Shown in pieces: positions 2,031-5,114 of a stretch of 64,000 nucleotides of DNA; within the stretch, counting starts at the first letter, position 1, and the number at the start of each line of letters is the position of its first letter. The DNA comes from an uncultured Bacteroidota bacterium (GTDB taxonomy: Bacteria > Bacteroidota > Bacteroidia > Bacteroidales > F082), in contig CAJXKB010000005.1 in NCBI GenBank assembly GCA_913055825.1, positions 1 through 64,000 on the forward strand, read 5' to 3'. The notes under the pieces were generated by a model. The model did no database searches. It saw only the letters and a list, made by a program, of their open reading frames with translations, and was not told the DNA's origin. The translations under genes and the position numbers were made by a program.

Positions 2031-2621
2031 CTATATGTATTTGCAGAAGTGATTCTGATCCACTATTTCCCGGTATTTTACTATTACTTTTTTAAAATCT
2101 TCCCATGTATCTCTTTTCAGATTTGGGTTTCGCAACAAAGCAGAAGGATGGAAGGTAGGCATTACCAGATAATTTTGCCATAATTTCCAGTTTCCGCGCT
2201 CACGTGTTATTCGGAGATTCTCACCAAAGAGCCCTTTCAACGCGGTTGAGCCCAGCGTTACAATAATTTGAGGGTGTACCAACTCTATTTGTTTTTCCAG
2301 ATATGGAAGACAAGCAGCTTGTTCAACTGTAGCAGGTACCCGGTTTTGCGGTGGCCGGCATTTTACAATGTTGCTCATAAAGACGTGCTTCTCGCGATTG
2401 AAATTACAGGCCAGTAATATTTTTTCCAGTAATTGTCCGGATTTTCCAACGAAAGCAACACCCGTTTTGTCTTCTTCAAACCCGGGGGCTTCCCCAATTA
2501 AAAAAATAGGAGCCTCAGGATTACCACTACCAAAAACCACCTGCTTTCGCGAATGGTACAAGGGACATTTTGTGCAATGTTCTACCTCGTCCCTAAGTTT
2601 GTCCATTTCGGTTACCCTCAT
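2031..2621 (-). CDS. Uracil-DNA glycosylase, family 4 (iron-sulfur)
   Basis: The 196-residue protein matches family 4 uracil-DNA glycosylases, which remove uracil from DNA to start base excision repair. The active-site motif GEAPGFEED sits at residues 43-51, followed by the GxSGQLL segment, and the second motif FHPSALLRNP lies near residue 156. Four cysteines at 16, 19, 88 and 104 have the spacing expected to bind a [4Fe-4S] cluster. The ATG at 2606 (MDKLRDEVEHC) is a reasonable alternative start. Nine bases upstream, in the same reading frame, ends a truncated Rossmann-fold fragment, so the present upstream context may be the product of a deletion. Confidence 0.93.
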   Translation of the reverse strand: MRVTEMDKLRDEVEHCTKCPLYHSRKQVVFGSGNPEAPIFLIGEAPGFEEDKTGVAFVGKSGQLLEKILLACNFNREKHVFMSNIVKCRPPQNRVPATVEQAACLPYLEKQIELVHPQIIVTLGSTALKGLFGENLRITRERGNWKLWQNYLVMPTFHPSALLRNPNLKRDTWEDFKKVIVKYREIVDQNHFCKYI

Positions 2622-2630
2622 TTTAATGCT

Positions 2631-2828
2631 TTATTTTATTGAAAAAGTTTCTGGCTGAAGTAAATTACCGCAAACAGCAATAATACGTTTATGATCAATA
2701 AATTGACTGCATTTTCCCCTCTCCCTGCATTGAACAATAATTTGCCATGGCGTATTGTTAAGGAGTTCGTTTATAATGGCTTTCCCCAAATAACCATTTA
2801 CACCTGTTATGAGCACGGTTTCCTTCAT
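2631..2828 (-). pseudogene. Truncated NAD(P)-binding (SDR/epimerase-like) fragment
   Basis: This 65-residue frame begins MKETVLITGVNGYLGKAIIN, the dinucleotide-binding start (GxxGYLG) of extended short-chain dehydrogenases and nucleotide-sugar epimerases. Such proteins are normally about 300 residues, and nothing resembling the rest (YxxxK active site, substrate domain) follows. The frame stops at 2631, ten bases before the uracil-DNA glycosylase start, and the two share the same reading frame. I read it as the N-terminal remnant of a gene whose remainder was deleted. It could instead be a small expressed protein. There is no sign of frameshifted continuation in the short space available. Confidence 0.55.
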
Positions 2829-2883
2829 ACTGATTACAAAGGTATAAGAAATGTGAGAAATTTAACTGAATAAACAAAGGATG

Positions 2884-2907
2884 TTGAACAAATGTTCAAT
2901 ATATTTG
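2884..2907 (+). promoter_or_regulatory. Promoter -7 element with abutting perfect palindrome (operator candidate)
   Basis: TTGAACA-AA-TGTTCAA at 2884-2899 is a perfect 7-bp inverted repeat. It directly touches TATATTTG at 2900-2907, which fits the Bacteroidota -7 consensus TAnnTTTG. The coding start follows 20 bases later at 2928. A dimeric regulator bound here would cover the space between the -33 and -7 elements, so repression is the simplest reading. The DUF134 helix-turn-helix protein encoded just downstream is an obvious candidate for self-regulation, but that is inference. Confidence 0.6.
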
Positions 2908-2927
2908 TGCTCAAATTCAAATATTAA

Positions 2928-3566
2928 ATGTCGCCCAGGCCGAAAAGAAGACGTATGATGAGTGAGCCCCCTTTTGTATCGGGCTTTATGCCAGAAGGAG
3001 GTGATTATAACCCGGAAGAAGTTGTTGTATTGCTTTTTGAAGAATATGAAGCCATTAAACTGTCGGATTATACGCATTTAACCCAGTTGGAAGCTTCCAA
3101 AAAACTTGGGGTCTCACGACCTACTTTTACCCGGATTTATGATTCCGCACGGAAAAAAATAGCATTGGCTTTTGTTGAAAATAAGCGAATTGTTATTCAG
3201 GGTGGAGAGGTGGAATTTGAAGAAAACTGGTATCGCTGTGGCAATTGCGGAAGTGTTTTTAAGCAAAATAAAAAGTCCGGCAAAAAGCTAAAATGCCCGG
3301 TTTGCGATTCGGAAGAGGTAACTTTATTGCAACACGACAGGGAAGTCAGAAGCGGAGGACCGGGTTTTGAACCGGGTTTTGGCAGGCAACGTCGAAGGGG
3401 GCGTGGGCCACAGGGCTTCTGTATTTGCCCCAAGTGCGATTATAAAATTGCACATGAACCGGGTGTACCATGCAATAGCTTATTGTGCCCGCATTGCGAT
3501 ATTCGCATGATTAAAGAAGACTCTGAACATTATCAGACAATATTAAAAAAACGAAAAATTAATTGA
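2928..3566 (+). CDS. DUF134 family HTH protein with C-terminal zinc-ribbon-like cysteines
   Basis: The first ~100 residues are a DUF134 domain: MSPRPKRRR start, the acidic LLFEEYEAIKLSDY segment and a helix-turn-helix (TQLEASKKLGVSRPTFTRIYDSARKKI). The rest is an extension with CGNC and CPVC pairs (about residues 104-126) and a second set CICPKC ... CNSLLCPHC (about 165-189). These are likely metal-binding ribbons, making the protein a candidate metal- or redox-sensing DNA-binding regulator. One base separates its stop from the NifX-like gene, so the two are almost certainly co-transcribed. Genes of this family are often found next to dinitrogenase-cofactor-binding-type proteins. Its ligand and targets are unknown. 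Confidence 0.88.
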   Translation: MSPRPKRRRMMSEPPFVSGFMPEGGDYNPEEVVVLLFEEYEAIKLSDYTHLTQLEASKKLGVSRPTFTRIYDSARKKIALAFVENKRIVIQGGEVEFEENWYRCGNCGSVFKQNKKSGKKLKCPVCDSEEVTLLQHDREVRSGGPGFEPGFGRQRRRGRGPQGFCICPKCDYKIAHEPGVPCNSLLCPHCDIRMIKEDSEHYQTILKKRKIN

Positions 3567-3567
3567 T

Positions 3568-3906
3568 ATGATGAAAAAATTAGCAATGCCATTAATGAAT
3601 GGACAACTGGCCGAACATTTCGGACATAGTCGCGAATTCGCATTTTATGAAATTGAAGACAATAAAATTGTGAAAGAATATCGTAAAGAGCCGCCCCCGC
3701 ATGCCGAAGGAACCATTCCTCGTTGGTTGGGTGCAGAAAAAGCTACTGATATTCTTGTGGGAGGCATCGGCCCCAAAGCAATTGATATTTTAAACAATTT
3801 TGGTATCGACGTGTATGTGGGTGTGGTAGTAGATGAAGCAGCCAATTTAGCCCTCGACTTTATTAACGGAAATTTAAAATACGGACAAAATTATTGTCAT
3901 CATTAA
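3568..3906 (+). CDS. NifX/NifB C-terminal-like (dinitrogenase iron-molybdenum cofactor-binding fold) protein
   Basis: This 112-residue protein has the single RNase H-like domain of the NifX/NafY/NifB-C family: it begins KLAMPLMNGQLAEHFGHSREF, and includes the ADILVGGIGPKAIDILNNFGIDVYVG core. Family members bind iron-sulfur or molybdenum clusters, but small stand-alone members occur widely in organisms without nitrogenase, and no nif gene is present here. The end NYCHH offers possible metal ligands. The start at 3568 is followed at once by a second ATG at 3571; either is possible. It lies between the DUF134 regulator (1 base) and a PLP enzyme (26 bases), suggesting a role in metal-cluster or sulfur handling. 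Confidence 0.9.
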   Translation: MMKKLAMPLMNGQLAEHFGHSREFAFYEIEDNKIVKEYRKEPPPHAEGTIPRWLGAEKATDILVGGIGPKAIDILNNFGIDVYVGVVVDEAANLALDFINGNLKYGQNYCHH

Positions 3907-3932: not shown

Positions 3933-5114
3933 ATGGACACAAAAAATATCGGATTCAATTCCAAACTCATCCATTCAGGTGGCGTGGAAGACGCCCTGGG
4001 TAGTGCTGTAACACCCATTTATCAAACTTCCACATTTAGTTTTAAAAGTGCCGATCATGGTGCCCGATGCTTCTCCGGTGAAGAAGACGGCTATATTTAC
4101 ACCCGGCTTGGAAATCCTACCATTGACGACCTGGAAAATACGTTGGCAGAACTGGAAAATGGTTATGGGGCCGTAGCAACGTCCTCAGGAATGGCCGCGG
4201 TAAATACTGTTTATATGGCCTTGCTGGGGTCGGGCGACCACATGATCAGCCATAACTCGGTTTACGGCCCGTCAAGAAGCATCATGGAAAAACTTTATCC
4301 TAAATTCGGGGTTGAAAGCACTTATGTGGATTGCACTCATATTGAAAACATTGAGAAGGCCATTCGCCCTAATACAAAATTGCTCTATCTTGAAACCCCC
4401 GCTAATCCTACTATCGGTATCACCGACATCGCTGCAGCTTCAACCATAGCCCACAAACACAATATTCTGGTGTGTGTTGACAATACTTTTTGTAGCCCGT
4501 ATATCCAGAAACCGCTTGATTTGGGTGCTGACATCGTATTGCATTCCATGACCAAATTTATTAACGGCCACGCCGATATTGTGGCGGGAGCAGTAATTTC
4601 CAAAACCAAAGAAATCCATGCCCAAATGAGTTATGTAATGAAAAATATGGGATTTAATATGGATCCGCATCAGGCATGGCTTACGCGAAGAGGATTGAAA
4701 ACACTGGCTATTCGTATTGATAAAGCCCAGGCCAATGCTCGCAAAATTGCAGCATTTTTAGAAGCCCATCCCAAAATTGAATGGGTACGGTATCCCGGAT
4801 TAAAATCACATCCGCAATATGCGTTGGCATTAAAACAAATGAGTGGCCCGGGTGCAATGATGTCATTTGAAGTAAAAGGAGGCCTTGAGGCCGGTAAGAA
4901 AGTGATGGATAATGTTCAACTGGCTTTGCTTGCCGTTTCGCTGGGAGGCATTGAAACCCTGATCCAACATCCCGCTTCAATGACCCACTCCAAACTTTCC
5001 AAAGAAGAAAAAGATGAGGCAGGTATCAGCGATGGCCTGGTTCGCCTGTCGGTGGGTATTGAAGATGCCGAAGACATCATTGCCGACCTGGAGCATGCCC
5101 TGTCATTTGTTTAG
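3933..5114 (+). CDS. Cys/Met metabolism PLP enzyme, methionine gamma-lyase-like
   Basis: The 393-residue protein is a fold type I PLP enzyme of the Cys/Met metabolism family. Visible landmarks are YTRLGNPT (residues 56-63), the VDNTF segment with Asp183, and the Schiff-base lysine Lys208 in [10 protein letters not shown]. The overall pattern is closest to methionine gamma-lyase, which splits methionine to methanethiol, ammonia and 2-oxobutyrate. However, where Pseudomonas putida methionine gamma-lyase has Tyr114-Gly-Cys116, this protein has Tyr111-Gly-Pro113. Cystathionine gamma-lyase/synthase or O-acetylhomoserine sulfhydrylase activity is therefore possible. It is the last gene of the unit with the DUF134 and NifX-like genes and is followed by an intrinsic terminator. 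Confidence 0.85.

Follow-up and report, generated by a model that had tools for sequence, protein, structure and literature searches.

The perfect palindrome TTGAACA-AA-TGTTCAA at positions 2884–2899 of the window (the whole analysed stretch, 64,000 nucleotides from an uncultured Bacteroidota bacterium) is most probably the operator of the DUF134 protein encoded downstream, which would act as an autorepressor with a small Fe-S carrier/sulfur regulon. Judged from sequence comparison, this reading has a probability of about 0.85. The computed evidence comprises the site itself, its conservation, the gene set that follows it, its co-occurrence with DUF134, its covariation with the protein, and homology to a solved domain with a near-identical operator. 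Three lines point to DUF134 as the likely reader: a helix-turn-helix (HTH) homologous to that of DeoR, covariation between recognition helix and operator, and operators specific to individual paralogues. Self-regulation by DUF134 was the first option of the original prediction; this main idea is well supported and appears to extend to a regulon with a candidate recognition code.

Palindrome, promoter and downstream genes

The letters and coordinates originally given for the palindrome, which is assigned to neither strand, are exact. It is adjoined with no gap by TATATTTG (2900–2907, forward strand), leaving 20 nt before the DUF134 ATG at 2928. Bacteroidota sigma-A promoters have the consensus TAnnTTTG for the −7 element and TTG for the −33 element. 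The former is present at 2900–2907, while no TTG was found at the usual −33 distance upstream of the window copy. The proposal that the site lies between the −33 and −7 boxes therefore applies to roughly half the sites in the family, where TTG precedes the 16-mer by exactly 7 nt (50/113; starting 6–9 nt before it in 64/114), but not to the window copy, where a −33 box is not recognisable. In those 50 cases the operator fills the spacer between the two boxes.

The argument that such a palindrome is unlikely by chance also stands only in part. Perfect 7-2-7 palindromes alone are ordinary, as the window contains 12 of them and 60 simulated first-order Markov windows contain 6.9 on average (maximum 14). 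The abutment to TAnnTTTG, however, occurs once in the window and, with both strands counted, in none of the 60 simulations. TTGAACANNTGTTCAA has a single mismatch-free occurrence in the window. An RNA structure at 2400–3600 was rejected, Rfam giving no match over the gathering score.

The DUF134 gene (2928–3566, forward strand) encodes a 212-aa HTH protein whose PF02001 match (83.2 bits, gathering cut-off 27) is the sole DUF134 match in the host genome. Its recognition helix starts with SRPTFTR at residues 63–69, and the C-terminal side carries a zinc-ribbon-like segment followed by a second Cys-rich segment. In a 44-sequence alignment S63, R64, T66, T68, and R69 are invariant, as are ten cysteines (104, 107, 123, 126, 165, 167, 170, 182, 187, and 190). 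The structure model has a mean pLDDT of 82, with helices at 53–60 and 64–83 and values below 50 at 139–157. The C-terminal Cys-rich segment (window 3390–3563) is paralogous to a stand-alone 70-aa Cys-rich protein encoded elsewhere in the host genome (G000:C16, L003:1252–1464, minus strand), with 46% identity over 39 residues.

A NifX/MTH1175-like gene (PF02579; 3568–3906, forward strand) starts 1 nt after DUF134, and its product resembles the C-terminal domain of MrpORP with a score below the cut-off of that model. The presumed third gene of the operon (3933–5114, forward strand) encodes a Cys/Met PLP enzyme whose best matches are methionine gamma-lyase models, again below their cut-offs. In one relative (G029) the operator lies directly upstream of a gene of this last kind, and likewise, judged by coordinates, in G052.

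Conservation upstream of DUF134 genes

The original prediction proposed looking for the same palindrome before DUF134 genes in related genomes, and this search found it conserved. In a motif-free scan of the 200 nt preceding each of 161 DUF134 genes, any palindrome touching TAnnTTTG was scored out of 13, with mechanically picked ORFs from the same kind of loci as controls. Six duplicate loci were removed, and eight were omitted because no DUF134 start was found by pattern (L133, L161, L169, L170, L171, L174, L185, and L191). Scores of at least 11 were obtained for 102/161 DUF134 upstreams vs 8/521 control ORFs, and scores of at least 12 for 78/161 vs 1/521. The single control hit at the higher threshold (L170) is in fact a variant operator next to a DUF134 gene. 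Shuffled upstreams reach these two thresholds in 1.1% and 0.06% of cases, respectively. Some DUF134 starts are misassigned; in L150, for instance, the ATG falls inside the operator and was counted as a miss.

The scan also separates one group of proteins from the rest. None of the 30 SR[PQ]TFGR-type DUF134 proteins (29 from one phylum-level family, taken for Chlorobi, plus L061) has a site at score 10, so the operator is claimed for the other helix types only. Without this group, 114/131 DUF134 upstreams score at least 10 (controls 52/521), although a few of these 114 best-scoring places miss the operator, as in L056 and L207, where it is the second one listed. Both halves end in TG....CA in 102 of the 114, and the commonest frame, shared by most sites, is ATGAACA-NN-TGTTCAT. 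Among six genus members the 16-mer and the −7 element are almost fully kept while the flanks have diverged. The DUF134 gene of G001 has no good site upstream.

Besides these sites, a second operator copy lies 25–29 nt downstream (start to start) in 11/114 promoters (L042, L075, L114–L116, L132, L137, L165, L167, L177, and L181). In other phyla, only single metagenome bins labelled Verrucomicrobia, Ignavibacteriales, and Chlorobiota hint at the same operator.

Co-occurrence in 100 relatives

DUF134 was found in 58 of 100 relatives, with further matches in two named methanogens used as control genomes. The promoter pattern TGAACANNTGTTCAWTANNTTTG occurs with at most one mismatch at 61 sites in the 100 relatives, 59 of them in DUF134-positive genomes, and all 25 exact sites belong to such genomes. 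Counted by genome, a near-exact promoter site is present in 43/58 DUF134-positive vs 2/42 DUF134-negative relatives (Fisher p 4e-13, relatedness ignored). At up to two mismatches 122 sites are found vs 20 for a reversed control pattern, but the contrast between genomes weakens to 53/58 vs 19/42. TGAACANNTGTTCA on its own is found 52 times among the 58 DUF134-positive genomes and 18 times among the other 42.

According to gene kinds assigned in the relatives by short regular expressions, 53 of the 61 near-exact sites precede DUF134 (36), Cys-rich (11), DUF5320-like (3), Mrp (2), or methionine-gamma-lyase-like (1) genes; the remaining 8, one of them because its contig ends, precede none of the five. 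Near-exact sites despite no detected DUF134 occur in G016 and G069, in the latter before a DUF5320 gene. DUF5320, typed by HMM, is present in 44/100 genomes, 41 of them DUF134-positive. DUF134 lies just upstream in 11 of 30 inspected DUF5320 loci, and among the other 19 an operator matching at 11–12 of 12 positions stands 42–68 nt before the gene in 13. Three DUF134-negative genomes have DUF5320 (G092, G069, and G026): G092 lacks the site, as expected, whereas G069 (91% complete) unexpectedly carries the gene together with the site.

An exact palindrome of a different sequence, TGAACAATTGTTCA, recurs in G022, G025, G035, G047, G057, G065, and G081. Only the copy in G022 fits the promoter pattern within two mismatches, and TGAACAATTGTTCA is perhaps the site of another factor.

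Predicted regulon in the host genome

The best named hits, at about 50% identity, suggest that the host is Bacteroidales-like. Exact TGAACANNTGTTCA occurs twice in the host genome, before DUF134 and before a DUF5320-Mrp-Mrp-NifX-like unit on contig C14, whose genes, like the other host units, were typed by HMM. With one mismatch allowed there are 10 sites, three of which precede DUF134, DUF5320-Mrp, and the gene for the 70-aa Cys-rich protein on C16, the last with one mismatch. Six of the seven remaining one-mismatch sites are inside ORFs of at least 60 aa, and the seventh (C113) is in no listed ORF, frames running off the stretch being unlisted. The C14 site overlaps an 87-aa ORF on the opposite strand, taken as spurious, and, read by eye, has no TAnnTTTG directly downstream in the gene direction. 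The predicted targets include NifX-like proteins, methionine gamma-lyase, and Mrp ATPases, the last with 4Fe-4S motifs.

Genes for Ppnp (PF06865) and a TPR protein follow the C14 unit on the same strand (G000:C14, L301:250–855). Among the relatives, operator-like promoters near heterodisulfide-reductase-like Fe-S genes (G007:C10, L263; G008:C2, L264) and, in the former locus, near a small CGGC-motif protein, all named by eye, mark possible further regulon members.

Covariation of operator and recognition helix

Among the 102 operators kept by a TG-frame filter, all 194 half-sites of proteins with T or S at residue 68 have C at position 5, and 9 of the 10 with A68 have another base there. Where residue 72 is N, position 6 is G or C in 12/16. 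These counts are inflated by shared descent. The SRSTFxRLI type has TGCACA in 8/14 half-sites. The covariation as a whole is confounded by shared descent, and its helix classes were drawn after the data had been seen. Exceptions are L050 (G088), removed by the filter, which has Ala68 yet C in both degenerate half-sites, and L137, L146, and L177, with a TGCACA half-site and an ordinary SRPT helix.

Paralogues within one genome differ in the same respect. G066 has two DUF134 paralogues with operators ATGAACATATGTGCAT and ATGAGATTATTCTCAT, and G086 two with ATGAACGTAGGTTCAT and TTGAACATTTGTTCAT. In G064 the operator of an N72 paralogue, ATGAACGTACGTTCAT, stands in front of a small ORF some 250 nt upstream, and another paralogue has ATGAACATTTGTTCAC. 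A single host-wide factor does not easily fit these data, as paralogues in one genome have different operators.

The prediction that TGAGAATATTCTCA promoters (at most one mismatch) occur only in genomes with SR[AP]TFAR-type proteins was written down beforehand; all five sites found are in the four predicted genomes, a result that is largely circular given that four of the five are the promoters that gave the pattern. The fifth has no clear target, and at two mismatches three further sites appear in G075, G097, and G098. A variant operator, TGAGAATATTCT(C/T)A before TAnnTTTG, was also seen at L170:946 upstream of an MBL-like ORF (named by eye), and an extra TGAGAATATTCT site at G066:C3:51559 (L296) has no clear target.

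Likeness to a solved DNA-binding domain

With an 11-row profile, the DUF134 HTH matches that of Bacillus DeoR by sequence (7bhy, E 9.5e-5; 8r7y, E 0.0013). The model of the HTH superposes on DeoR at 0.7 A over 40 columns (Foldseek E 0.14). For the whole DUF134 model Foldseek gave no hit at E ≤0.001, and good alignment, to sigma region 4 and to DeoR, is confined to the HTH. According to PMC11229326, the left operator of DeoR is ATTGAACAAAATTTCAAT, with base contacts on TTGAACA. This left half-operator, TTGAACAAAATTTCAA, is identical to the window palindrome at 14 of 16 bases. The same paper describes base contacts of R34 and R39 at limited resolution; in the sequence alignment, with a six-residue tag offset, these residues align with DUF134 R64 and R69. 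In size exclusion neither half-operator alone formed a complex with DeoR, as reported there. The SorC sugar-binding domain PF04198 has no match in the DUF134 protein (E 0.001) or in the 97% complete host genome (E 0.01). A SorC protein as reader was rejected, none being detected in that genome.

Proposed mechanism and alternative explanations

We infer direct binding, dimerisation, the signal, the organisation of the genes as an operon, and that the protein represses rather than activates. A DUF134 dimer would set its DeoR/sigma4-like HTH on the two TTGAACA half-sites and, bound in the promoter spacer directly upstream of the −7 element, would block RNA polymerase; steric autorepression is the likeliest mode because the operator sits in the spacer. 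DUF134 would in this way repress its own DUF134-NifX-like-methionine-gamma-lyase operon and also control the DUF5320-Mrp-Mrp-NifX-like unit and the 70-aa Cys-rich protein. Through its C-terminal Cys clusters the protein probably responds to a metal, Fe-S, or sulfur state, which would release or alter binding; this putative signal is suggested by the Cys-rich C-terminus and by the target genes.

DUF134 may bind and yet activate, or both activate and repress according to its metal or cluster state. MerR-type activators likewise use operators placed in the promoter spacer, and the C14 site without an adjacent TAnnTTTG would suit such a mode. Most DUF134 promoter sites, however, touch the −7 element, which is the classical position of a repressor, and the second copies towards or over the transcription start (11/114) are hard to reconcile with activation, which makes it unlikely, though by no means negligible. 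That the palindrome lies beside the promoter by chance could be argued from how common 7-2-7 palindromes are in the window, but it is refuted by positional and sequence conservation across Bacteroidota relatives and by repetition of the palindrome before functionally linked genes; its probability is as good as nil.

Other readers of the operator can be considered as well. ArsR/SmtB-type repressors usually autoregulate, their 6-2-6 consensus TGAACA..TGTTCA closely resembles the operator, and the host genome has eight PF01022 matches, so that a metal repressor of this type might read the site with DUF134 merely its target. For the eight matched genes (one a 407-aa ORF), however, the best site within 250 nt of the start scores 9/12, and TGAACA as an ArsR/SmtB site was not found in the literature among the matches listed. 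The site moreover follows DUF134 presence (43/58 vs 2/42 genomes), and its bases vary with the DUF134 recognition helix and between paralogues of one genome, which leaves an ArsR-type reader very unlikely. An Fnr/Crp-type factor had been the second option of the original prediction. The TTGA...TCAA ends do resemble Fnr boxes, and the gene set suits an anaerobe, but the Fnr box is TTGA-N6-TCAA and the palindrome is TTGA-N8-TCAA, with the variant operators TGAGAATATTCTCA and TGCACATATGTGCA still further away. This option was accordingly not borne out and is extremely unlikely.

Beyond autorepression by DUF134, a broader reading is offered tentatively, as one that is somewhat less probable than even. 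The DUF134 family might be one-component Fe-S/sulfur/metal sensors with an operator code of their own, set mainly by recognition-helix residues 68 (with 65, 70, and 71) and 72. They might govern the Mrp/NBP35-MTH1175-DUF5320 module of Fe-S trafficking in anaerobes. In the feedback loop of this reading, the Cys-rich protein might be a free-standing copy of the sensor domain that competes for, or delivers, the same ligand.

Comparison with known systems

DUF134 is still of "unknown function" in Pfam, though present in more than half of the relatives, and no operator site or regulon for it (UPF0251, COG1342) is named in the titles or abstract openings of the papers listed. It now gains a candidate operator, a gene set, candidate specificity residues, and a solved template, while the poorly understood Mrp, NifX-like, and DUF5320 proteins would, as far as sequence can tell, be tied into one regulated module.

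ArsR/SmtB metal sensors are similar to DUF134 in autoregulation, in a palindromic promoter operator, and in a probable metal/thiol signal, but differ in HTH family and sensor domain. B. subtilis DeoR (SorC family; PDB 7bhy and 8r7y) has the homologous HTH, with SRPTVSR in place of SRPTFTR. It carries a SorC sugar-binding domain, which DUF134 lacks, having metal-binding-like Cys clusters instead. As described in PMC11229326, the DeoR tetramer acts at an operator of 39 bp and its gene is upstream of, and outside, the operon it represses, whereas DUF134 is proposed to act as a dimer on 16 bp from inside its presumed operon.

Regarding the targets, the ORP/MrpORP proteins of Desulfovibrio are an Fe-S carrier system (PMC6345978). 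MrpORP shares its Mrp/NBP35 ATPase and dinitrogenase-cofactor (MTH1175-like) domains with the DUF134 gene set; it joins both in one protein, while in the DUF134 gene set they are two separate proteins. The orp operons of D. vulgaris are reported to be linked to sigma54 and IHF (PMC3897727), whereas the regulator proposed here is DUF134.
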